Below are positions 10,965 to 24,928 of a DNA stretch of 42,422 nt, piece after piece. The first letter of the stretch is position 1. The number at the start of each line of letters is the position of its first letter. The notes below the pieces were generated by a model. The model did no database searches. It saw only the letters and a list, made by a program, of their open reading frames with translations, and was not told the DNA's origin. A program made the translations under genes and the position numbers. This DNA comes from a virus. The DNA is taken from positions 1 to 42,422 of the IMG/VR virus record IMGVR_UViG_3300042090_003214. One strand, written 5' to 3'.

Positions 10965-11830
10965 GTCGGGAAGAGCCCGCCCTGCTGCTCGCGCCCGAGG
11001 ATCGAGTTGGGCGCGAGGAAGGCGCTGCGGCGGCGCAGCTTGTTCGGGTTGACGGCGTTGAGGAACAGGTCGCAGATCGGAAGACCGGTGAGGTCGTCTC
11101 GGATGTAGGTCAGCGGGTCGCCGACCGCCACCGTGATCCCCTGCGTGGCGACCGAGAGGACGCGCGAGGGGAGCCGCGCCGAGTTGTCGCCCGAGAGCGA
11201 GAGGGCGAGCTGCACGGCGAGCTCGACGCACGCGAGGCGGCCGGCCTCGGGCGGCGGGCGCCCCCACTCGTAGTCGATGCCGAACGTGCCGCTCTCTGAG
11301 AGGGGGAGCTGGATCTGCTGGTTCCAGGGCCAGGCGTTGGCGCCGCTGAGGTTCGCGTTGATGTTGAGGACGAGGCGGCGGCGGTCGTAGAGCGTGAAGT
11401 TCGGGTTGTTCGGCGGCCACCCGCCGAGGTTCTGCCCGTTGAGCATGACGCCGTTGATCTTCGTCACCGGGCCCTGGAGGACGACCTCGCTCGCGTCCTG
11501 CCCGTTCTGCCACCAGCCCATGCCGACGGCGGTCCAGGCCCAGCCGGCCGCGAACCCCCACGAGTCGCCGTAGCCCGACATCGACGAGTAGGGGTAGAGG
11601 TAGTTCTGGTTGGCGTAGCCCGAGGAGATCTGCGTCGGGCGCACGACCGAGCGCCCCGTGCGGTACTGGCGGCCCGAGAGGACGAAGAGGAGGTCCGTCG
11701 CCGCGGCGATCATCCACGCCTTGTCGACGTCCTGGACCTTCTCGAGGCGCTTCGGCGGCAGGTCGCTCTCCTGGCACCACGGGTTGACCCCGTGGCTGTT
11801 CGCCGCGACGGGGGAGGCGGCGGTCGTCAC
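10961..11830 (-). CDS. Head-to-tail adaptor
   Basis: A 289-residue protein starting at GTG 11830, overlapping the previous stop by GTGA. Early residues form a helix with AWMIAAATDLLFVLSGRQYRTG, then VVRPTQ. The central part has VTKINGVMLNGQNLGGW followed by FTLYDRRRLVLN, then TFGIDYEWGRPPPEAGRLACVELA with a helix, LPSRVLSVATQGITV and ICDLFLNAVNPNKLRRRS. This string of motifs (helix with LSGRQ, then a DxRxL strand, then YxxGxPPPxxGxxA, then LPxRV) is the pattern of actinophage head-to-tail adaptors that sit under the portal. Its extra W/Y/G-rich stretch near residues 70-105 is longer than I expect. Confidence 0.78.
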   Translation of the reverse strand: MTTAASPVAANSHGVNPWCQESDLPPKRLEKVQDVDKAWMIAAATDLLFVLSGRQYRTGRSVVRPTQISSGYANQNYLYPYSSMSGYGDSWGFAAGWAWTAVGMGWWQNGQDASEVVLQGPVTKINGVMLNGQNLGGWPPNNPNFTLYDRRRLVLNINANLSGANAWPWNQQIQLPLSESGTFGIDYEWGRPPPEAGRLACVELAVQLALSLSGDNSARLPSRVLSVATQGITVAVGDPLTYIRDDLTGLPICDLFLNAVNPNKLRRRSAFLAPNSILGREQQGGLFPT

Positions 11831-12465
11831 GACACCGTCTCGTAGACGATGTTCCCCGTCGTGAAGCTGAGGACGCCCGTGCCGGTGAAGACGAGGGTCT
11901 GGTCGAGGGCGAGGAAGAAGCCGCCCGACCCCGTCGGCGTGATCGGCGAGCCGCTCATGGTCGCGGAGAGCTCGAGGGTGTCGCTCGTGGCGCCCACGAC
12001 GTAGTACGTCGTCGGGTCGCCCGACAGCCCGGTCGGGATGACGCTCTGCGCGTTGGGCGCGGTGAAGAGGCGCACGACGTCGCCGTTGGCCAGGCCGTGG
12101 GCGGGGCAGGTGATCGTCGGCGAGCTGGCGAGCGCGCTGGCGATGAGGTAGCCCGCGACCGCGGGGAACCCGCCGAGGAAGGTCCCGCCCGTCTGCGCCG
12201 TCCAGATCCCGTACCACGGGATCGTCTGCGCGCTCGGGATGTCGATGGTGATGGTGGCGGTCGAGGAGTCCGACCCCGAGCCGCCCGACGCGAACGTCGG
12301 CTGCTGGCGCCCGTCCGCGCCCGAGCCCGTCGTCAGCTCGTTGGCCCCCGAGGAGCCGGGGTCCGCGGAGTGCGTCGACACCCAGACCGCGGCGTTGGCG
12401 TAGGAGGCGTCGCGGGTGACGGTCCCGGTGAGGTCCTCGAGCAGCGCGGGGGTGGCGGGCGACAT
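11827..12465 (-). CDS. Gp80-like tail/fibre protein with inserted domain
   Basis: A 212-residue protein (SPATPALLEDLTGTVTRD). The first 105 residues match the Gp80-like family of small phage fibre proteins: AAVWVSTHSADPGSSGANEL, GRQQPTFAS, TIPWYGIWTAQTGGTFLGGF. Between residues about 108 and 185 an extra domain is present (PAHGLANGDVVRLFTAP, IPTGLSGDPTTYYVVGATSDTLEL), a GLxxGDxV...YYV...LS module common in phage fibres. The C-terminal strands (QTLVFTGTGVLSF) then resume the family. The paralogue at 29548-29943 lacks the insert. It lies next to the second GH26-like gene and overlaps the adaptor start. Confidence 0.7.
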   Translation of the reverse strand: MSPATPALLEDLTGTVTRDASYANAAVWVSTHSADPGSSGANELTTGSGADGRQQPTFASGGSGSDSSTATITIDIPSAQTIPWYGIWTAQTGGTFLGGFPAVAGYLIASALASSPTITCPAHGLANGDVVRLFTAPNAQSVIPTGLSGDPTTYYVVGATSDTLELSATMSGSPITPTGSGGFFLALDQTLVFTGTGVLSFTTGNIVYETVS

Positions 12466-12496: not shown

Positions 12497-13384
12497 AACC
12501 TTGGCCATTGCGCCAGCGACGATCGGACCAGCCTTGGGATAGAGCGAGAGCGCCGACTTGTCCTTGTCGTAGTAGAGCGCCCCCACGATCTCGGGCGTCG
12601 CCTCGAGGGCGTCCCACACGCCCGTCGCCCACGCGGGGTCGTCCTTGCCCTGGAGGCCCCACTCGCAGACGATCACCGGCTTGTTGATCCTGCCCCCGAA
12701 GGCGGCGGCGCCGTTGATGATGTTGAGGGCGTTGGAGAGCGCGCCCATGTTGTCATAGAGGTCGAAGCCGACGTAGTCGACGTGCTGCGCGCCGTTGAGG
12801 CCAGTGAGCCGCGGGTCGTACCCTCCGGGTCCGGTGCGGGCGACGTCCCAGACGAAGCGGAACCCGAGCGACTCCTCGAGCGCGAGGGCGATCAGGTGGT
12901 TGCGGGCCAGGATCCGCAGCGCCTCGTTGAGCCGGCCCGCCCAGGCGTACCAGTTGCCCCAGTCCTCCTGGCCGATGCGGATGATGGCGTTGGGGTAGGT
13001 CGCGGCGATCATGCGGAACACGGGACGGAACATCGGATCCCACTTGCCAGCGGCGACGTCGGCGAGGTCCATCGGCGTCGGCACGTTGCCCTTCCCCGTC
13101 GTATCGGTGAAGGTCTGGGGGGAGATCGTCTTGCCGCTGCAGCCGACGTTCCAGCCCGCGCCGAAGAGCATGGCGATGGTGATGACGACCTGCTTGCACC
13201 CGGCGAGCTCGGTGACGAAGAACGAGCTCCACATCTGCGCGGCCCAGTTGTCGTTCGGTCCCCCCTGCGTGCTCTGGCCGGGGTAGGACTGCGAGACGGG
13301 CGGAGCGGCGACCCTGAGCCAGCGCTGCGACTCGGCCGCCAGCGCGCCCGCGGGCGTCGTGATGCCGACGAGCGCGGGGTTCAC
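12491..13384 (-). CDS. GH26-like glycoside hydrolase (virion-associated)
   Basis: A 297-residue protein starting at GTG 13384, overlapping the propeller gene stop by GTGA. It reads as a TIM-barrel glycosidase of the GH26/clan A type: AIIRIGQEDWGNWYAWAG around E140 matches the acid/base motif (xE..G.WY.W), and PVIVCEWGLQG around E241 matches the nucleophile strand. Strands between them are in order (FRFVWDVA 176-183, VDYVGFDLYDN 202-212, EIVGALYYDKD 265-275). No signal peptide is seen. It lies in a fibre gene block, so it is probably a virion enzyme that cuts a host surface polysaccharide such as a mannan or related glycan. Substrate is unknown. A second enzyme of this type is at 30015-31406. 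Confidence 0.72.
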   Translation of the reverse strand: MNPALVGITTPAGALAAESQRWLRVAAPPVSQSYPGQSTQGGPNDNWAAQMWSSFFVTELAGCKQVVITIAMLFGAGWNVGCSGKTISPQTFTDTTGKGNVPTPMDLADVAAGKWDPMFRPVFRMIAATYPNAIIRIGQEDWGNWYAWAGRLNEALRILARNHLIALALEESLGFRFVWDVARTGPGGYDPRLTGLNGAQHVDYVGFDLYDNMGALSNALNIINGAAAFGGRINKPVIVCEWGLQGKDDPAWATGVWDALEATPEIVGALYYDKDKSALSLYPKAGPIVAGAMAKVL

Positions 13385-15582
13385 GCGGGCGTAACGGTGA
13401 CGACGTAGAGAACCGCCGCCCCCTGGGTCGAGCCGGGGTCCGATCCGGTGTTCGTGCCGTCCTGGGACACGCAGACCTTGATCGGCGCCGCGGTCGTGAA
13501 CTTGCCGACGCCGTCGCGCCCGTAGGTGGGCGCGGTCCCGCCGTTGAGGAGGGCGTCGAGGAGCGACGTGCCGGGCGTCCCGTTGTTGAGGAAGCCGGGG
13601 AATGATGTGATGCCCGCCGTGTCGGGCACGGTCATGTTGCACGCGGTCGGGCCGATCGAGGCGAGCATCCCGATGTTGCCCCCGACGAAGGAGGAGAAGT
13701 CGCCCAGCGGCGTCGTCCCGTTCCACGGGGTGTCGACCTCGATCCACGCGTCGAGGAGGACGTCGCCCACCGTCGGCGTGTAGAGCGGCGCCCCGGTGAG
13801 GATGTCCGCCGTGTCGAAGGCGAAGGGGAAGGCGCGGACGACCGGCAGCCCGCGGGCGACGGGACCGGTGATCTTGAGGCCGCCCATGACGACGGTGAAC
13901 GGCGTGACGATGACCGAGCCGCTCGTATCGCCGGTGCTGAGCCAGAGCGACCCATCGGCCGCGGCGCAGATCCACCCCGCGCCGGGAGAGGGCAGCGCGA
14001 AGGACGTCGCCACCCCCTCGGTCGTCAGCTTCCAGAGGACGTGCGCGCTTATGTCGGGCGCCCAGAGGTCGCCCCCGGCGCCGACGCAGATCCCCTCGGG
14101 GAGCGCGCCGCCCGTGAGGGTGAAGGTGTTGAGCAGGACCCCCGCCGTCGAGATCTGGAGGATGGCGCTCGACGTCTGGTCCGTGACGTAGAGGTTCCCG
14201 TCGGGTCCGGTGCAGATGGAGATCAGGGTGTGGTCGAAGCCGATCAGGTGCTCGGCGATCGAGCCCGCGGGCGTGATCCTCCAGACGTAGCCGGGGTACC
14301 CCGTGGCCCAGAGGTTGCCGTCGGGACCGGCGCAGATCGTCTCGGGTTGGCGGCCCGCCGTCAGGGCGAAGGACGTCGCGACGCCCGCCGTCGTGATCCG
14401 CCAGATCAGGGCGTTGTCGCGGTCGGCCGCCCAGAGGTTGCCGTCGGGTCCCGCGCAGATCCCCGAGAGCTGGCCCGCCCCGGTGATGGCGAACGTGTTG
14501 AGGAGCGAGCCCGCCGTCGAGATCTGGTAGACGTTCGGCGGGGTCGTCTCGAGGTCGACGACGTAGAGGTTGCCGTCTGAGCCCGAGCAGATCCCGTAGG
14601 GCGTGTCCGACCCGGCGATGGCGAAGAAGGTCGGCACGCCGTCGAGGGTCCAGCGCACGACGCCCTTGTTGTCGACGCCGGCGATGGGCGTCCAGACGTT
14701 GCCGTCGCGCCCCGCGGCGATGAAGCCGGTGTCGTTGTTCCCCGAGAGGCCCGAGGAGTAGGCGAGGGCGACGCCGGGGAACTCGAAGCCGATGAGGGCC
14801 GGAAGCGGCTGGATGATCCCCGAGGGCGGCACGAGTGGCTGCTTGGTGATCTGCAGGGGCAGCTCGCCCGAGGAGACGAGCGCGCCCGAGTTGACGGTGA
14901 GGTCCGCGCCGCCGCCGCCTAGCTGGACCCACGACGTGGCGCTCGTCGCGACGGTCGCCTGCCAGACGGCGGGGGTCGCCGTGTCGACGACGACGTCGCC
15001 CTTCGACGCCGAGGTCACGTGGGTGTTCGGGTCGCCCGCATAGACGCTAAAGATGACGCCATCGAGCTCGAAGAAGGGGGTGACGACCCCGCCCGCCACG
15101 ATGCCCCCCGGGGTCTGGATGCCGCCCGCGATGTAGACCGGCGCGGGTGCTCCCCCCTCGGCGTTCCAGGTGAGCAGTCCGCCGCTGGCTAGGTTCTGAA
15201 ACGGGCTGAATGCCAGGATGTCGACGATCTGCCCGTCGATCACGAAGATCGTGGCGGTGAAGGTCCAGCCGTCGGGGATCGGGTCCTCGTCCGCGTCGAG
15301 CAGGATGCCGCTCGTGATGCCGCCGGCGCCGACGGTGAGAACCGCGCCCAGGACGTAGAGACTGTCGTCGACGGCGTAGCTCGCCGGGACGCCGTAGCAG
15401 GGCACGTCGAACGGCGCGCTCTGGCCGGTGCCGTCCCAGTAGCTCAGCGAGAGGACCTCTCCCACGCCGCCGCCCTCGCCGGGGGTAAAGGCCACCCAGC
15501 CGTCGCCGGTCGCGTTCAGCTTGAGGGCCTGCCCAGCGACGATGCTGAGGGGCGCGAGGGGCGGGTTCGGGAACGGCGGCAC
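13381..15582 (-). CDS. Modular fibre/decoration protein with Vgb-like seven-bladed propeller
   Basis: A 733-residue protein. Residues 1-40 (PFPNPPLAP, GQALKL, GWVAFTPGEGGG) and 90-145 (LLDADEDPIPDGWTF, IVDILAFSPF) are shared with neighbouring proteins. Residues 190-222 hold a fibre motif (KGDVVVDTATPAVW, SWVQLGG). Residues 280-560 form seven repeats with GxDGNLW-type turns at about 291, 334, 378, 419, 459, 501 and 541, each followed by a strand such as IWRITTAGVATSFAL. This is the plan of virginiamycin B lyase-like or NHL-like propellers. Residues 570-733 are a beta-rich C-terminal domain. Propellers of this kind usually bind ligands. I could not check lyase catalytic residues. Start GTG 15582. 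Confidence 0.7.
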   Translation of the reverse strand: MPPFPNPPLAPLSIVAGQALKLNATGDGWVAFTPGEGGGVGEVLSLSYWDGTGQSAPFDVPCYGVPASYAVDDSLYVLGAVLTVGAGGITSGILLDADEDPIPDGWTFTATIFVIDGQIVDILAFSPFQNLASGGLLTWNAEGGAPAPVYIAGGIQTPGGIVAGGVVTPFFELDGVIFSVYAGDPNTHVTSASKGDVVVDTATPAVWQATVATSATSWVQLGGGGADLTVNSGALVSSGELPLQITKQPLVPPSGIIQPLPALIGFEFPGVALAYSSGLSGNNDTGFIAAGRDGNVWTPIAGVDNKGVVRWTLDGVPTFFAIAGSDTPYGICSGSDGNLYVVDLETTPPNVYQISTAGSLLNTFAITGAGQLSGICAGPDGNLWAADRDNALIWRITTAGVATSFALTAGRQPETICAGPDGNLWATGYPGYVWRITPAGSIAEHLIGFDHTLISICTGPDGNLYVTDQTSSAILQISTAGVLLNTFTLTGGALPEGICVGAGGDLWAPDISAHVLWKLTTEGVATSFALPSPGAGWICAAADGSLWLSTGDTSGSVIVTPFTVVMGGLKITGPVARGLPVVRAFPFAFDTADILTGAPLYTPTVGDVLLDAWIEVDTPWNGTTPLGDFSSFVGGNIGMLASIGPTACNMTVPDTAGITSFPGFLNNGTPGTSLLDALLNGGTAPTYGRDGVGKFTTAAPIKVCVSQDGTNTGSDPGSTQGAAVLYVVTVTPA

Positions 15583-17812: not shown

Positions 17813-17831
17813 GATCCGCTGGGGGCGGATC
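17813..17831 (-). terminator. Hairpin at the end of the tail-tube-like gene
   Basis: gatccgc-tgggg-gcggatc: a perfect 7-bp stem with a 5-nt loop that overlaps the stop codon at 17830-17832. No T-run follows. It may be a terminator, attenuator or mRNA-stabilising hairpin. Confidence 0.4.
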
Positions 17832-19008
17832 AGGTCATCGGCACCGCCTGGTAGCCCGGCTCGATGACGCCCGTGTCGGCGGCGACGCCCGGGAGCTCGA
17901 AGTCGAAGACCATGTTGCACCACGCCGTGGTGTCGATCGCCGCGCCGACGCCGGGCAGCATCGACTCGCGCCAGTCGTCGGCAGGGCCCGTCCCGAAGTT
18001 CGGGTTCTCGATCGCCCATCCCGTGAACATGGGCGTCTGCTCCTTGTTCTCGATCGTGAAGGCGTCGTGCCAGAAGTAGGCGCGGAAGATCCCCGTGCGG
18101 ACGTAGGGCGAGCCGGGGATCGAAGGCGTGCCCGCGGAGGGGTAGGGCGTCGTGCCCTGGAAGCCGGTGCCGCGCACGATCGCCTTTGACCAGACCTCGA
18201 TCGAGACGCCGAAGGGGCAGGCGATCAGGAGCAGGTGCGGGTACTGGTACCCGATCGTGCCGACGGGCTGCGCGCCCAGCGTGATCGAGAGGCCCGTGCC
18301 CGTGAAGAGCGCGCCGGCGCTCATGCGGACCTCGGTGGCCGAGATGTACTCGGTGATGTACGCGTTGGCGGGGATCTCGTAGAAGGTCAGCGTCACCGTG
18401 GCACTCGCGGTCGCGGCCTGCGAGAGGGTAAGGGAGGTGGCGCTCTGGACCGAGGCGACGGTGGTTCCGGTGGCGATGCCGGCGCCGGTGACCGTCATGC
18501 CCGCCACGACGTTGGAGGTGATGAAGTTGTTCGTCGTGGTGACGGTGGTGGTCGAGTTTGTGGTGCAGCTCGCCACCGTGAACCCGGGGCCGGTGACGCT
18601 GCGCCCGACGTCGTCGAGGACGAAGGCCGCGTCCGCGGGCGACGAGAGGATGTTCTCGTTGAGCGAGATGGCGCCGTCGGCGAAGGTCCGGCCCGCGCTC
18701 CCCGAGGCGGTGATCACGGCGCCCTGGGCGACGAGCTCGTTCTGCTCGGGGTCGAAGTCGCCGAGGGTCAGGTTGATGTCCCAGCGCTTGTAGCGGTCGC
18801 AGTCCTTGTACGAGATCACCGGGACGCCGCACGCCGAGATGGGGGTGAACTCGACGCCCGCGACCATGTTCGGCTTGGCCTCGAGCTTGACGAGGGGGCG
18901 GTCGTCCTGGACGACGGAGATCGCGGACGACACGATCGAGCCGTCGGCCGCGAGGCGGCTGATGCGGTAGGCGCACCCCTGGATGACTACGGGACCGTTG
19001 GTTGCCAT
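17830..19008 (-). CDS. Virion structural protein, probable major tail/tube type, with nested module
   Basis: A 392-residue protein with a strong ribosome site (AAGGAGG) before ATG 19008. Outer parts, residues 1-110 (CGVPVISYKDCDRYKRWDINL, TLGDFDPEQNELVAQ) and 250-392 (HLLLIACPFGVSIEVWSKAI, FRAYFWHDAFTIENKEQTPMF, GWAIENPNFGTGPADDW) resemble actinophage major tail-type proteins. The middle holds a beta module split by a second copy of the same module. Position right after the capsid genes is early for a tail-tube gene, so a head decoration protein remains possible. High expression is suggested by the ribosome site and the downstream hairpin. Confidence 0.6.
   Translation of the reverse strand: MATNGPVVIQGCAYRISRLAADGSIVSSAISVVQDDRPLVKLEAKPNMVAGVEFTPISACGVPVISYKDCDRYKRWDINLTLGDFDPEQNELVAQGAVITASGSAGRTFADGAISLNENILSSPADAAFVLDDVGRSVTGPGFTVASCTTNSTTTVTTTNNFITSNVVAGMTVTGAGIATGTTVASVQSATSLTLSQAATASATVTLTFYEIPANAYITEYISATEVRMSAGALFTGTGLSITLGAQPVGTIGYQYPHLLLIACPFGVSIEVWSKAIVRGTGFQGTTPYPSAGTPSIPGSPYVRTGIFRAYFWHDAFTIENKEQTPMFTGWAIENPNFGTGPADDWRESMLPGVGAAIDTTAWCNMVFDFELPGVAADTGVIEPGYQAVPMT
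18268..18678 (-). repeat. Beta module interrupted by a second copy of itself
   Basis: Residues about 111-142 (LSSPADAAFVLDDVGRSVTGPG) are the first half of the module found complete in the two upstream genes. Residues 214-247 (IPANAYITEYISATEVRMS) are its second half. Between them, 18376-18582 encodes another complete copy (TTTNNFITSNVVAGMTVTGAG, GTTVASVQSATSLTLSQAAT). The break falls at GPG|IPA, the GAG|IPA turn of the intact copies. Confidence 0.7.
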
Positions 19009-19017
19009 GTTTCCTCC

Positions 19018-20400
19018 TTAGAGGGTGCTCGTGTCGACCAGGACCGCGGCCCTGAGAAGGTTGTTGGTGATCAGCGCGTGGGACCTCTCAGCGCGGACCT
19101 CGACGAGGTTGTCGACGGGGAGGTCGGGCGACATCTCCCGGAGGTCGAGCGGGTAGGTATGCACGTCGCCCTGGAGGTGGTAGACGAAGTCGGTGGCGTA
19201 GGCCCACTGGAGCACGAGGCCCGTCGAGCTGCCCCCGACGCCCGGGAGCGTGATCGTCACACCGCTCGCCGAGGCGGTGGCCGCCTGGGACATCTCGACC
19301 TCCGTGGCGCTGACCCAGCTGGCGATGACCGTGCCCGCGGGGATGCCGGCGCCCTCGACCGGGTTGCCCACGTCGAAGAGGGTGAAGTCCGCCGTCGCGC
19401 TCGTCAGCTCCGTCGTCGAGTTGGTCACGGCGTCGGCGACGCTGCGGCTCGCCTGGTCGGGGCCCGTGCCCGGGTAGCCGTAGGACGGGACGATCACGTT
19501 GGAGTTGACCGTGCGGATGTCGCCCGAGGAGTCGCGCACGTAGGGGTAGACCTCCATCCACTTCTGCGCCACGTAGGGCGTGCAGTGGATCATCCCCGTC
19601 CCCGAGCTGGTGTCGGCGATCGTCTGGTCCAGCTTGGCCAGCGAGTCCGACAGCGACACCGGCACGCCCAGCACGGTCCCGCCCGGTGCCGTCGGGTCGT
19701 CGAAGGCGTAGCGCAGCGTCCGGTGCGGCGACGTCAGCGAGCTGTTGGGGCTGGCCGACAGGTGCAGGTTCGTCGGGACCTTCGTCCCCGTCCAGAACTC
19801 GTACGCCGCCTGCGTCGCCTCGTAGGAGAGGAGCGCCCGCACGCAGCGCGCGACTCGCGACGCCATGTCGGTGTTGGGCCAGCCGAAGGCCGACCGCGAG
19901 TCGAGGCCGACCGCGAGGAACGGGTCATACCAGAGGAAGAGGGCCTGGTTCGGGCCGACCGGCTTGAGCGCGCCCTGCGTCGGGTTCGAGATCGCCGGGA
20001 ACTCGTCCTCGGTGAAGGTGATCGTCGACGTGTCGTCGAGCTCGGGCAGGAAGACGAAGCCGTGCTCGAAGCGCTGCTGCTCGGCGAGCGTGCTGACGAG
20101 CGACCCCATCTCGCCCTGCCACTCGCTCATCTGCTGCTCGAGGGCCTTGCGCGCGTCCTCGACCGAGTCGGCCTCGCCCGGCTGGTCGTCGTCGCCGACG
20201 ACCCCGCCCATGTCGAAGGCCTCGAGCTGCTCGGCCGCCGACGCCATCTTCTCGACGAGCGCCTGGCGCCGGGCGACGAGGCCCTCGAGGTTGATCAGGG
20301 TCCGCGCCTCGCTGAGGATCGAGACCTGCGGCTGGGTGAGAGGCGGCGCCGCGGGCATGGTCCAGTCCATGCCCATGACCTCTTCGTACTGCTGCGTCAC
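19018..20400 (-). CDS. Capsid-adjacent structural protein
   Basis: A 460-residue protein with a strong ribosome site (AGGAGGTGAGAG) before GTG 20400. Residues 30-110 form an acidic coiled coil (LVARRQALVEKMASAAEQLEAF, EDARKALEQQMSEW). Residues 150-310 contain YDPFLAVGL, ATQAAYEFWTG, LAKLDQTIADTSSGTGMIHCTP and VPSYGYPGTGP, a text I associate with structural proteins encoded beside actinophage capsid genes. Residues 319-386 are the recurrent beta module. The C-terminus (WAYATDFVYHLQGDVHTYPLD, ALITNNLLRAAVLVD) returns to the parent fold. Likely a minor capsid, penton or decoration protein. The exact role is inferred. Confidence 0.6.
   Translation of the reverse strand: MTQQYEEVMGMDWTMPAAPPLTQPQVSILSEARTLINLEGLVARRQALVEKMASAAEQLEAFDMGGVVGDDDQPGEADSVEDARKALEQQMSEWQGEMGSLVSTLAEQQRFEHGFVFLPELDDTSTITFTEDEFPAISNPTQGALKPVGPNQALFLWYDPFLAVGLDSRSAFGWPNTDMASRVARCVRALLSYEATQAAYEFWTGTKVPTNLHLSASPNSSLTSPHRTLRYAFDDPTAPGGTVLGVPVSLSDSLAKLDQTIADTSSGTGMIHCTPYVAQKWMEVYPYVRDSSGDIRTVNSNVIVPSYGYPGTGPDQASRSVADAVTNSTTELTSATADFTLFDVGNPVEGAGIPAGTVIASWVSATEVEMSQAATASASGVTITLPGVGGSSTGLVLQWAYATDFVYHLQGDVHTYPLDLREMSPDLPVDNLVEVRAERSHALITNNLLRAAVLVDTSTL
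19243..19446 (-). repeat. Recurrent beta module in the capsid-adjacent protein
   Basis: Residues 319-386 (LTSATADFTLFDVGNPVEGAG, IPAGTVIASWVSATEVEMSQ, ATASASGVTITL). It interrupts the parent protein between GYPGTGP and LVLQWAYATDF. It matches the modules in the major capsid and tail-tube-like proteins. Confidence 0.7.
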
Positions 20401-20453: not shown

Positions 20454-22769
20454 CTACAGGCCCGAGCCGACCCCGAGCGTGATGGACGCCGCGGCGCCGT
20501 AGGTACCGTCGGCGGCGACGGTGTGGACGGTGCGCAGCGACTGGAGGCCGACGAAGGCCGGCGTCTCCCACACTTCCTCGAAGTTCCGGAAGCGGTTCTG
20601 CGAGTTGAGGATCGAGTCGCGCACGAGGCCGAGGTTCAGCTCGCCGGTCGTCAGGCCGAGCCACGTGCCCTCGGCCCACATGAACGAGACGACCTTCGTG
20701 CGGAACGACGTCGAGCTGCCCTGGCCGGGGTAGTCCGGCACGGCGACAGGGGTGGCGTTGTTGACGCCGCCCGTGTTGATCGCGCCCGAGCCGACGGCCG
20801 GGAAGAGCTGGGAGATGTCGCTCGGCCCGTCCCAGTAGAAGAAGGGCAGGATGTGGCGGTCCATGAACCAGCTGTTGAGCTCGTCGTCGGAGAGCCCCCA
20901 GTTGTCGCCCCCGCCCATGAACGTCGAGATGTAGTCGCCGCGCATGGCGTTGATCGCCCACGCCGGGATGCCGAGGCGCAGGACCATCATCGGGTCCATG
21001 CGGTTGAAGTTGCGGTAATAAGCCGCAAGGTGGTCGAACTGTGCGAGCAATTGCCGCGCCGTGCCGAAGGTCTTCGCGAACGTGAGCAGCGTCGACCACC
21101 CGGTGATGTAGTTCAGCGCCTGCGTGTCGGCGACGCGGGCGGCCAGGGCGTTGGCGAGCCGGATGTTGAGCTCGACCTGCTCGGGGAACGTCCGGGCCGT
21201 CAGGTTGGCGAACTGCAGCGACGTGTAGATCGAGTACACGTCGTGCTCGGCCTGCGTCCCGATCGGCACGTCGTACGTGTACTTGAGCGTGCTCGGGGGG
21301 CCGGCCGCGTCCTGCGCCGCGGTGACGACGCCCACGGCCTGGCCGAGGTTGTTCGGGTTGCGCGCCGGCAGCGAGAAGGCGACGCCGGTCAGCGTCGAGA
21401 CGGCCGCCTGCGAGAGCGTCACCGAGCTCGACGACCCCACGGCCGTGATCACGGTGCCCGCGGGGATCGACCCCTGGCCGTCCGTCTCGACGATCGGCTT
21501 GTTGAGGTCCGCCGCGGTGAAGTCCGCGGTCGCCGACGTGAAGGTCGTGTCCGAGGCGGTGACGCCGTCGGTGAAGTAGCCGGGCTGTACGGCCGCGGTC
21601 AGCGTGCCCAGCGACGCCGGGAGGACGAGGCGGATGCCTCCTCGCTCGGCGGTGAAGCCGGGGTAGGCGCCGGCGACGGGCCGGTCGGCCTCCGCCAGGA
21701 GCAGCTGCGCGTAGTACGGCTCGACCGGGGCGGCGAGCCCGCCGGAGGCGACCAGGGCGCTCGGGTCCTCGACCGCGATGCCGCCCTTGCCGATGGGCAG
21801 CTCGCGCCCGAGGTTGAAGGGGTCGACGCCGATGGCCTTGAGGCCCACGACCCGGTCGATGCGGCGGCGCAGCTCGGCGCCGTCGACCGACGTCGCGAGG
21901 CCGCGCAGGTCGCGCATCTCGGAGGGCTCGTGGGCGCGGTACGAGGCGATCTCGACCTTCTCGTCCTGGAGGTTCGTGGCGCGCCCGAGGTCGCGGAACT
22001 TGCGCTGGAACGCGTGGACGAGGTCGTCCATCTCCGTGAACTGGTGGCCGGGCGCCCAGCCGTTGACGTCCCCGGTGTGGACGAGCTCGCCGCGCGGGGC
22101 GCGCTGCGAGGGCGGGTCGACGTGGTCCTCGCCGCGGGAGTTGAAGGCCGCCAGCTCGGCAGCAGAGACGCGGCGGTTCGGCGCGGCGTGGATCACGGGG
22201 CGCTCGCTGGCCGCGGCGAGGATCCGCTCGGCCGAGTCCATGATCGGGGCGAAGGCGCGGGCGGCGCCGCGGGCCATGCCCTCGGCGACGGCCTCTGCCA
22301 GCGCGGCGGGGTCGAGGGCGCGGCCGTCGGCCAGCAGCGAGGCGGGGTCGACGGGGGGCGCGGGCGGGTCGAGGACCTCTCCCAGCGCGGCGGCCAGGGC
22401 GGCGCGCTCGGCGTCGGTCGGCCCCGCGGCGACGGCGGCGGCGTACTCCTCGACGAGGGCGAGGTCCTCGGGCGAGAGGGCGGCCAGCTCGGTCAGCTCG
22501 GCGTCGGCGGCCTCGAGGCGCTCGGCGGCCAGGGCGCGCAGGGCGGGGATCCGCTCCTGGAGCTCTGCCACCCGGGCGACGTCGATCGTGGCGGTGTCCG
22601 CCAGGGCGGCGCGCGCCTCCTCGACGTAGGCGTCGTGCAGGAGGCCGATCTCCTCGTCGCTGAGCGTCGAGAGGTCGGCGGGGTAGTCGGGCAGTCCCTC
22701 GGCGACCAGGGCCGTGATCCGGCCATCGGCGCCAAAGCTGGCGAATCGGTTCGAGCGGCTCTGTGCCAT
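20454..22769 (-). CDS. Major capsid protein with N-terminal scaffold-like domain
   Basis: A 771-residue protein. The ATG at 22769 is chosen because GGAGG lies 6 nt upstream; a start 17 codons earlier has none. Residues 1-200 are helical and acidic and probably act as a scaffold (delta) domain removed at maturation. The HK97-type region follows: YDVPIGTQAEHDVYSIYTSL, VELNIRLANALAARVADTQ, MMVLRLGIPAWAINAMRGDY, and near the end LTTGELNLGLVRDSILNSQN, EVWETPAFVGL, typical of actinophage capsid proteins. Residues 400-469 are an inserted beta module. The length is well above the usual 300-550. The N-terminal motif resembles that of the protease. A hairpin precedes and another follows the gene. Confidence 0.88.
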   Translation of the reverse strand: MAQSRSNRFASFGADGRITALVAEGLPDYPADLSTLSDEEIGLLHDAYVEEARAALADTATIDVARVAELQERIPALRALAAERLEAADAELTELAALSPEDLALVEEYAAAVAAGPTDAERAALAAALGEVLDPPAPPVDPASLLADGRALDPAALAEAVAEGMARGAARAFAPIMDSAERILAAASERPVIHAAPNRRVSAAELAAFNSRGEDHVDPPSQRAPRGELVHTGDVNGWAPGHQFTEMDDLVHAFQRKFRDLGRATNLQDEKVEIASYRAHEPSEMRDLRGLATSVDGAELRRRIDRVVGLKAIGVDPFNLGRELPIGKGGIAVEDPSALVASGGLAAPVEPYYAQLLLAEADRPVAGAYPGFTAERGGIRLVLPASLGTLTAAVQPGYFTDGVTASDTTFTSATADFTAADLNKPIVETDGQGSIPAGTVITAVGSSSSVTLSQAAVSTLTGVAFSLPARNPNNLGQAVGVVTAAQDAAGPPSTLKYTYDVPIGTQAEHDVYSIYTSLQFANLTARTFPEQVELNIRLANALAARVADTQALNYITGWSTLLTFAKTFGTARQLLAQFDHLAAYYRNFNRMDPMMVLRLGIPAWAINAMRGDYISTFMGGGDNWGLSDDELNSWFMDRHILPFFYWDGPSDISQLFPAVGSGAINTGGVNNATPVAVPDYPGQGSSTSFRTKVVSFMWAEGTWLGLTTGELNLGLVRDSILNSQNRFRNFEEVWETPAFVGLQSLRTVHTVAADGTYGAAASITLGVGSGL
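21363..21572 (-). repeat. Recurrent beta module inside the major capsid protein
   Basis: Residues 400-469 (TSATADFTAADLNKPIVETDG, IPAGTVITAVGSSSSVTLSQ, GVAFSLPAR). It lies between AAVQPGYF and NPNNLGQAVGVV, so it would project from an inserted loop of the capsid fold. It matches the modules at 19243-19446 and 18268-18678. Confidence 0.7.
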
Positions 22770-22863
22770 TGTGGCCTCCGGGCGTTGCGTCGTGGGTGTC
22801 GTGGACTGGCCGAATCCCACGGACTCGCACTGCGCCGCCGGCTGTGCCGAGGGTGACGCTCTT

Positions 22864-23308: not shown

Positions 23309-24928
23309 CTAGGGGCTGACCGTCTGCCCGACCGCGACCCGCGCCCGCGCCTGCCCGACGGCCCAGCGCCCGACGGGCTGGCCGAGGGACCAGCGCGTCG
23401 AGGTCGACCCCGCCTCCCAGCGCGCCGCGCAGGTCCCGAACGCCCAGCGCGCCGTCGCCTCGCCGAAGGCGTAGAGGCGCGGCGGTGAGGGGAAGTACGG
23501 GAAGCCGAAGGCCGACAGCGAGATCGACCCCGCCGCGGTCGTCGAGGCGGCCGGGACCGCGCCGGCGAGCAGGGTCACCGCGCCCGACGCGGAGAGGGCG
23601 ACGCGCGGCGACCCGGCCGCGACGAGCGAGAGCGCGCCCGACCCCGAGGCGACGGCCCCGACGGAGGCGGACCCCGCGAGCGAGATCGCCCCCGCGGCGA
23701 CCGGCAGCGGGACGGCCGCGCCCGAGAAGGCGATCGACCCCTCGGCGCCCTCGAGCGCGGCGGGCGATCCCGACCCGGTCAGGGCGACGGCCCCCGAGGC
23801 GATCGTCGAGGGGACGCCCTCGCCCGAGAGCGAGATCGAGCCGGCGCCCGAGGGCTGGGCGTAGGCGGTGGCGGACCCGGAGAGGACCACTGAGCCGCTC
23901 GACGAGGACGCCGCCGAGGCGGTCGCCGAGGCCGCGAGGGACAGCGACCCGGCGCCGGTGTCGCCCGTGATCGCGAAGCCGTTGAGGACGATCGAGCCGC
24001 CCGCGGACGTCGCCGCGCCGCCCGCGGCGGACCCGGCGAGGGCGAGCGCGCCCGCGGACGTCGCCGCGTACGTCTCGCTGACCGAGGCCTCGAGGTCGAT
24101 CGACGCCGAGGCGCCCGCCTGGGCCGAGGGCGAGGCGCTGCCGCTCAGGGCGATCGACCCCGCGCCCGTCGTCGGGTACGTCTCGGACGCGGCGGCCGAC
24201 AGCGAGATCGAGCCGGAGGCGCTGAGGGCCTCTACGGGCACGGCGGCGCCGGTGAGGGTGATTCCCCCTGTCGGGCTCGCCGAGGCGCTCTCCGTGGCGC
24301 TGGCGGCCAGCGAGAGCGATCCTGCGCCCGTCTCGGCGTACGTCTCGGCCGCCTCGGCGCTCAGGGCGATCGAGCCAGACGCCGAGGGCTGGCCCGCGGG
24401 GGTCGCTGACCCAGTGAGCGAGAGCGAGCCGGTCGCCGAGGGGACGGCCGCCGGGGTGCCCGAGCCCCCGAGCGAGAGGGACCCGGTCGACGTCGGGACG
24501 GCGGAGACGGTGGCCGACCCGCCCAGGGTCAGCGATCCCGCCGCGGTGGGCTGGCCCGTCGACGTCGCCGACCCCGACAGCGAGACGGCCCCCGAGGCCG
24601 CGGGCAGCGCCGCCGAGGTCGCGGATCCGGTGAGGCTGACGGACCCGCTCGCCGTGACGAGGTACGTCTCGGAGACCGACGCCGCGAGGGAGAGCGCGCC
24701 CGTGGCAGTGACGCCGTACGTCTCGCTGACGGTCGCGGTGAGGGTGATCGACCCCGTCGCCGTGACGGTGTAGGTCGAGGTCCCCGGGATCGAGGCCGGG
24801 AACTGGACCGCTCCGCCGCGGATCCAGTAGGCGAAGGTGGCCGTGCCGGCGACCTCCCCGAGCAGCTCGGGGAGCAGGACCGTCCCGCCGCGGCTCCAGT
24901 AGCTAAAGGTGTTCGGGTTCTGTGCCAC
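23309..24928 (-). CDS. Protein of about 24 tandem 18-residue repeats (fibre-like)
   Basis: A 539-residue protein in three parts. Residues 6-50 have two copies of F.YW.RGG.V..P (FSYWSRGGTVLLP, FAYWIRGGAVQFP). Residues 52-477 are about 24 repeats of the form xxxPSASGSISLSGSATP; 21 are 18 residues and three are 16. Residues 490-534 are five perfect nonapeptides of the form xxxxRWxxG. The rest is Ala/Gly/Ser-rich, with no Cys pairs and no membrane segments. The regular strand-turn pattern suggests a beta-solenoid or triple beta-spiral shaft of a head or tail fibre. It could be made longer or shorter by recombination between repeats. The function is not known. The ATG at 24928 follows a small hairpin. 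Confidence 0.75.
   Translation of the reverse strand: MAQNPNTFSYWSRGGTVLLPELLGEVAGTATFAYWIRGGAVQFPASIPGTSTYTVTATGSITLTATVSETYGVTATGALSLAASVSETYLVTASGSVSLTGSATSAALPAASGAVSLSGSATSTGQPTAAGSLTLGGSATVSAVPTSTGSLSLGGSGTPAAVPSATGSLSLTGSATPAGQPSASGSIALSAEAAETYAETGAGSLSLAASATESASASPTGGITLTGAAVPVEALSASGSISLSAAASETYPTTGAGSIALSGSASPSAQAGASASIDLEASVSETYAATSAGALALAGSAAGGAATSAGGSIVLNGFAITGDTGAGSLSLAASATASAASSSSGSVVLSGSATAYAQPSGAGSISLSGEGVPSTIASGAVALTGSGSPAALEGAEGSIAFSGAAVPLPVAAGAISLAGSASVGAVASGSGALSLVAAGSPRVALSASGAVTLLAGAVPAASTTAAGSISLSAFGFPYFPSPPRLYAFGEATARWAFGTCAARWEAGSTSTRWSLGQPVGRWAVGQARARVAVGQTVSP
23327..23461 (-). repeat. Five RWxxG nonapeptide repeats
   Basis: Residues 490-534: EATARWAFG, TCAARWEAG, STSTRWSLG, QPVGRWAVG, QARARVAVG. 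Each is exactly nine residues. The last copy has V in place of W. It may form a small tip or binding domain at the end of the fibre. Confidence 0.7.
23498..24775 (-). repeat. 54-nt (18-residue) tandem repeats
   Basis: About 24 units, aligned on GS[IL]xL and a following G/A-rich stretch, with 21 of 18 residues and three of 16. The units are diverged in DNA, so this is an old expansion rather than recent slippage. Confidence 0.8.

Follow-up and report, generated by a model that had tools for sequence, protein, structure and literature searches.

The major tail (tube) protein of an uncultured phage carries a beta module whose two halves are separated by a second, complete module of the same family. 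The DNA that we analysed, here called the window, is an IMG/VR virus record of 42,422 bp that is probably a fragment. We interpret its tail protein, which is of siphophage type, as the product of a two-level domain insertion, with one module lying inside a distant family relative, and place the probability of this anatomy and of its stepwise assembly at about 0.93. The nested module is a real observation, well documented through relatives, and represents domain insertion in virion proteins, a known phenomenon, in a new form. As a whole, the account that joins two-level stepwise insertion to a two-barrel adhesive arm is in our view the best explanation and a probable one.

The tail protein and its nested modules

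The 392-aa protein that holds the modules is the major tail (tube) protein of the phage and is phrog_792-like. By tblastn it matches the major tail proteins of Gordonia phage Sixama, of Arthrobacter phages Mimi and Atuin, and of others. Both the capsid gene and the phrog_779 gene lie upstream of it, and the order capsid, phrog_779 protein, major tail protein is alike in the window and in nine annotated phages. Moreover, its AlphaFold2 model matches the solved tail tubes 8ygm, 8rk3_f and 9n71 (Foldseek, E 6e-3 to 3e-2), and its homologue in the metagenome record L013 matches phrog_792 (E 7.8e-6). The genes and modules concerned are as follows.

17830..19008, minus strand: major tail (tube) protein gene, 392 aa, carrier of the nested modules (tblastn, gene order, Foldseek)
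18583..18684, minus strand: outer module, first half, residues 109-142 (joined-halves profile score; uninterrupted in L013)
18376..18582, minus strand: inner module, complete, residues 143-211, within the beta3-beta4 loop of the outer module (profile, AlphaFold2, comparison with L013 and L173)
18265..18375, minus strand: outer module, second half, residues 212-248 (joined-halves profile score; uninterrupted in L013)
19018..20400, minus strand: phrog_779 protein, 460 aa, between the capsid and tail protein genes (phrog_779 E 1.5e-4; synteny; alignment)
19240..19434, minus strand: one uninterrupted module within the phrog_779 protein, lacking in the nine relatives (alignment)
20454..22820, minus strand: major capsid protein gene, 788 aa (phrog_777 E 2.2e-38; NF033847 MCP_Sipho E 7.1e-52)
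21363..21569, minus strand: one uninterrupted module within the major capsid protein, lacking in the nine relatives (alignment)

Alignment with the nine annotated phages revealed one extra stretch of about 140 aa in the tail protein and an insert at one place each in the capsid protein (about 69 aa) and the phrog_779 protein (65 aa). The tail insert is twice as long as the others because it consists of two modules, one within the other; in the AlphaFold2 model it follows helix 87-94 and precedes strand 268-275. Once its halves are joined, the outer module measures ~70 residues and sits in one loop of the tail protein. Against an independent profile, built from module copies outside tail proteins only, the joined halves (109-142 and 212-248) scored 44.8 bits, compared with 10.0 bits for the first half and 27.2 bits for the second when scored alone, and with a top score of 9.5 bits among about 1000 shuffles of the joined sequence. 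The inner module (143-211) scored 44.0 bits against the same profile. When the inner core was removed in an excision scan, the optimum in the window joined residue 142 to residues 210-212, and that in L173 fell at the homologous point, 142 to 213 ('TDAG/LPAG', the slash marking the joint). An unconstrained scan by pairwise alignment did not locate the joint in the tail protein, as local alignments were drawn to the complete inner copy.

We rejected a tandem arrangement, since two first halves precede two second halves along the chain. We likewise rejected a chimeric assembly, since the nested form recurs in two distinct contigs, with about 30% of residues differing between their tail proteins. 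These two independent sequences, the window and L173, represent one lineage, and between them the inner module keeps its reading frame, with variability of 0.30, 0.29 and 0.48 at the three codon positions (third highest). A preliminary description of this DNA had proposed that one module interrupts another of the same family in a virion protein, with the break at a GxG/IPA turn. Both points are borne out, and the coordinates and sequences that it gave were accurate.

Three other proteins of the window were noted. A 733-aa protein in the tail-gene region (13381-15582, minus strand) contains a beta-propeller, seen as a match to Pfam Vgb_lyase (E 4.2e-35) and to NHL repeats; the propeller is probably part of a virion or adhesion protein and not of a resistance enzyme. 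A 212-aa protein (11827-12465, minus strand) matches the Pfam Gp80 fibre family (E 1.6e-10) and includes an AHGL-like segment with a weak match to the endosialidase beta-barrel. A 539-aa protein (23309-24928, minus strand) is composed mostly of degenerate ~18-residue 'SGSLSLxGSA' repeats, whose spacings at the DNA level are often multiples of 54 bp, and L173 encodes a similar repetitive protein at 1047-1742.

Probable stepwise insertion and the probable origin of the inner module

The clearest proof of nesting comes from the comparison of relatives, because these present states with no module, with the outer module only, and with the nested pair, and can be read without any scoring. The major tail proteins of the nine annotated phages have neither the outer nor the inner module. 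In L012 and L013, two metagenome records with identical proteins, the outer module is present and uninterrupted ('VGRSVTGTG-VATGAYVSEYISATEVRVSA'), and the tail protein outside the module is about 74% identical to that of the window. In L173, which stems from a third metagenome record, the modules are nested as in the window, and the boundaries coincide.

A tree of capsid and tail proteins, built with the modules excluded, grouped the window with L173 (0.93), followed by L013 (1.0) and then by L092, which has a module in the capsid protein only. In the simplest history that we infer from these data, the capsid module, which L092 shares, would have been gained first, the modules of the phrog_779 and tail proteins next, and the inner module last, on the branch that led to both the window phage and L173. 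Were the nested form ancestral instead, its sister L013 would have lost the inner module through a clean deletion. Such a loss draws some plausibility from a lineage known from three sequences only; it requires, however, one extra event on a tree in which the window and L173 are sisters, and we consider it improbable.

With regard to its source, the inner module is probably a separately acquired relative of the outer one and not its duplicate, as judged from sequence comparison. The alternative is an origin within this genome, by duplication of either the outer module or the one in the neighbouring phrog_779 protein. The 47% identity between the inner module and the latter fits such an origin, and gene conversion between neighbours is plausible. 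However, the inner and outer modules are 20% identical, and the nearest modules to the inner one, at up to 61% identity, are those of unrelated viral contigs (L183/L184). In a tree of 102 module copies, moreover, the outer, capsid, phrog_779 and Bridgette modules form one side (0.96), while the inner module groups with copies of unrelated contigs on the other (0.79), although the short alignments limit the weight of this split. We therefore find a within-genome duplicate unlikely: separate branches together with 20% identity make an inserted homologue the more likely source, and this separate origin is likely but not proven because the tree uses about 65 columns. The inner module is thus probably no copy of the outer one, and the word 'duplication', by which the arrangement had been described, is best abandoned.

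Most likely, the inner module would have come from another module-bearing gene via short-homology or illegitimate recombination. We looked at the joints for direct repeats and for a target-site duplication and saw no more than matches of 5-6 bp, and a search for a donor sequence of the inner module found none. Nor does base composition clearly point to a recent acquisition (inner GC3 0.94 against 0.97). The inner module had no tblastn match in annotated phages, an absence that weighs little since the low-complexity filter masks much of the module; the same filter reduced the Bridgette query to 30 residues.

Fold of the module and the loops that receive it

By profile and predicted fold, the module is a beta-barrel of the type found in the Bridgette decoration protein. 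The nested model and the model of the L013 outer module both had this protein (8ECI) as their top PDB match (Foldseek, E 7.6e-4 and 5e-5), and the module sequence profiles match it at E 7.2e-4 to 1.2e-13 in the region of residues ~13-73. The next fold matches of the outer module were an endosialidase barrel and an F1-ATPase barrel; its matches to endosialidase barrels were weak (E 0.08-0.9), and comparison of the module with the endosialidase beta-barrel/'AHGL' profile (PF12195) gave an hhalign probability of 6% (E 0.006). No Ig match was found in Pfam or NCBIfam, and the top PDB fold matches are not Ig folds.

When modelled with AlphaFold2, the inner and outer modules fold as separate domains of six strands in the same order, the inner one in the nested chain (pLDDT about 85-94 over 151-210) and the intact outer one of L013 on its own (pLDDT 82.9). 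The alignments given to AlphaFold2 had split rows, since MAFFT mixed outer module, inner module and body when tail proteins or modules were aligned whole. Within the nested chain the outer module is modelled with low confidence (pLDDT 35-48), probably because just two relatives inform the model, and the two stacked domains are thus deduced from the parts and not seen together. The preliminary description had proposed structure prediction, with two stacked domains of one fold as support, and a profile alignment between inner and rejoined outer parts: the separate folding of both modules agrees with it, as does their common family membership by profile score, but the stacking itself was not seen, and within the family the two modules are remote and fall on different branches.

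The break falls at GTG/IPAG, which in the L013 model lies between strands 38-41 and 49-55, the beta3-beta4 loop. After removal of the nested insert, this site had 37 inserted residues in 8 of the 102 copies (up to 10), by far the most of any site. As the most length-variable loop of the family, it is the one that best tolerates a change in length, and the inner module entered there.

Across the family, sequence comparison indicates that the module enters specific loops and not arbitrary beta folds, contrary to the earlier suggestion that it could enter 'any beta fold': it was found in particular loops of HK97-type capsid, phrog_779, head-closure and tail proteins. The capsid module occupies the same site in the window, L013, L173 and L092, and in L144/L145 this capsid loop holds an AHGL-type module instead. 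The tail-protein loop elsewhere contains AHGL-type modules (L015 and L144/L145), similar ones (L016/L023/L034) or unrelated-looking inserts (L014 and L147). Further copies were found in tail fibres, in amidase-type proteins, in capsid proteins of a different family (phrog_267) and in a head-closure protein (phrog_578), and a scan of bacterial genomes yielded seven module loci, all distant.

Some further arrangements were observed in this survey. In L144/L145 one and the same AHGL-type module is found in the capsid and the tail protein, at the positions taken up by the window's own modules, as if one phage equips its capsid and tail loops with the same kind of module. In L008 and L010 (Microbacterium phages Pumpernickel and Zooman) an AHGL-type module is located close to the C-terminal end of the tail protein and not in the loop. 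An annotated hydrolase in L174 (3173-5653; MW202566.1) has five module copies, which match the profiles of both family branches.

The module had also been suggested to be able to enter its own fold. In 120 ORFs that contain one or more near-complete copies (108 distinct ones in all), a sample fetched by similarity and hence not random, nesting was confined to the window and L173, a single lineage. We regard it as unlikely that the family is self-stackable, with the GxG/IPAG loop as a standing site for repeated insertion of its members; if it were, phages would have a means of lengthening surface arms by repeated insertion, unlike tandem repeats.

Possible function and comparison with known systems

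On the proposed model, each tail-tube subunit would display a two-barrel arm on the virion, while each capsid subunit and each phrog_779 protein would display one barrel; the inner insert would extend the arm, adding reach and a second binding surface. Ig-like domains of the capsid and tail-tube proteins of phage Douge bind mycobacterial LAM/AM and alpha-glucan (PMC13033339). We hypothesize, by analogy and at roughly even odds, that the modules serve weak multivalent adhesion, a role favoured over stabilisation because, like those of Douge, they sit on the most numerous head and tail proteins. They may instead chiefly stabilise the virion, the tail insert packing on ring neighbours and the capsid insert acting as a fused decoration protein. 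The only solved homologue is indeed a capsid decoration protein, and in the AlphaFold2 model the tail insert is placed equivalently to the extra beta-sandwich 'domain2' that, in the YSD1 tail protein, separates helix 1 from strand 4 and makes the ring interface larger (PMC8718954); both the Bridgette protein and the YSD1 insert are regarded as structural reinforcements. Yet relatives (L092 and the nine annotated phages) manage without tail modules, and modules of quite different kinds occupy the tail loop, a pattern more in keeping with display than with a specific interface, so that a chiefly stabilising role seems possible but the less probable of the two.

The closest known counterpart is gp7 of the Arthrobacter phage Bridgette (8ECI), which the module resembles in profile (E 1.2e-13 over residues 14-70) and, for the outer module, in fold (TM 0.71, rmsd 2.4 A, 36% identity). 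The Bridgette protein is a free-standing chain of 126 aa, whereas in the window the module forms part of the capsid, phrog_779 and tail proteins, and the outer one of the tail protein itself contains a further module. The Ig-like (Big_2 and similar) domains of many phages, as in lambda gpV, T5 pb6 and Douge, are likewise small exposed beta domains on major capsid and tail proteins, but they are C-terminal, while the window's modules lack Ig-like sequence or fold matches and are inserted in a loop and nested. The YSD1/chi domain2 is a beta domain that likewise follows the tube helix and precedes the next strand in a major tail protein, but it is an insertion at a single level, compared with two in the window. 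Nested domain insertions of the A1-B1-C-B2-A2 type have been catalogued previously (PMC13114784), and the window conforms to this pattern with the tail protein as A, the outer module as B and the inner module as C. Here both levels are demonstrated by relatives without the insert; the distinguishing features are that C is homologous to B, both being members of one family, and that intermediate states were found in relatives.

All of these intermediates survive (no module, one module, and one within another), which makes the steps of insertion and the tolerance of the receiving loop directly testable. One capsid loop and one tail-protein loop repeatedly receive different modules. More generally, a family known in the PDB from one capsid decoration protein emerges as a mobile surface module of the main head and tail proteins.
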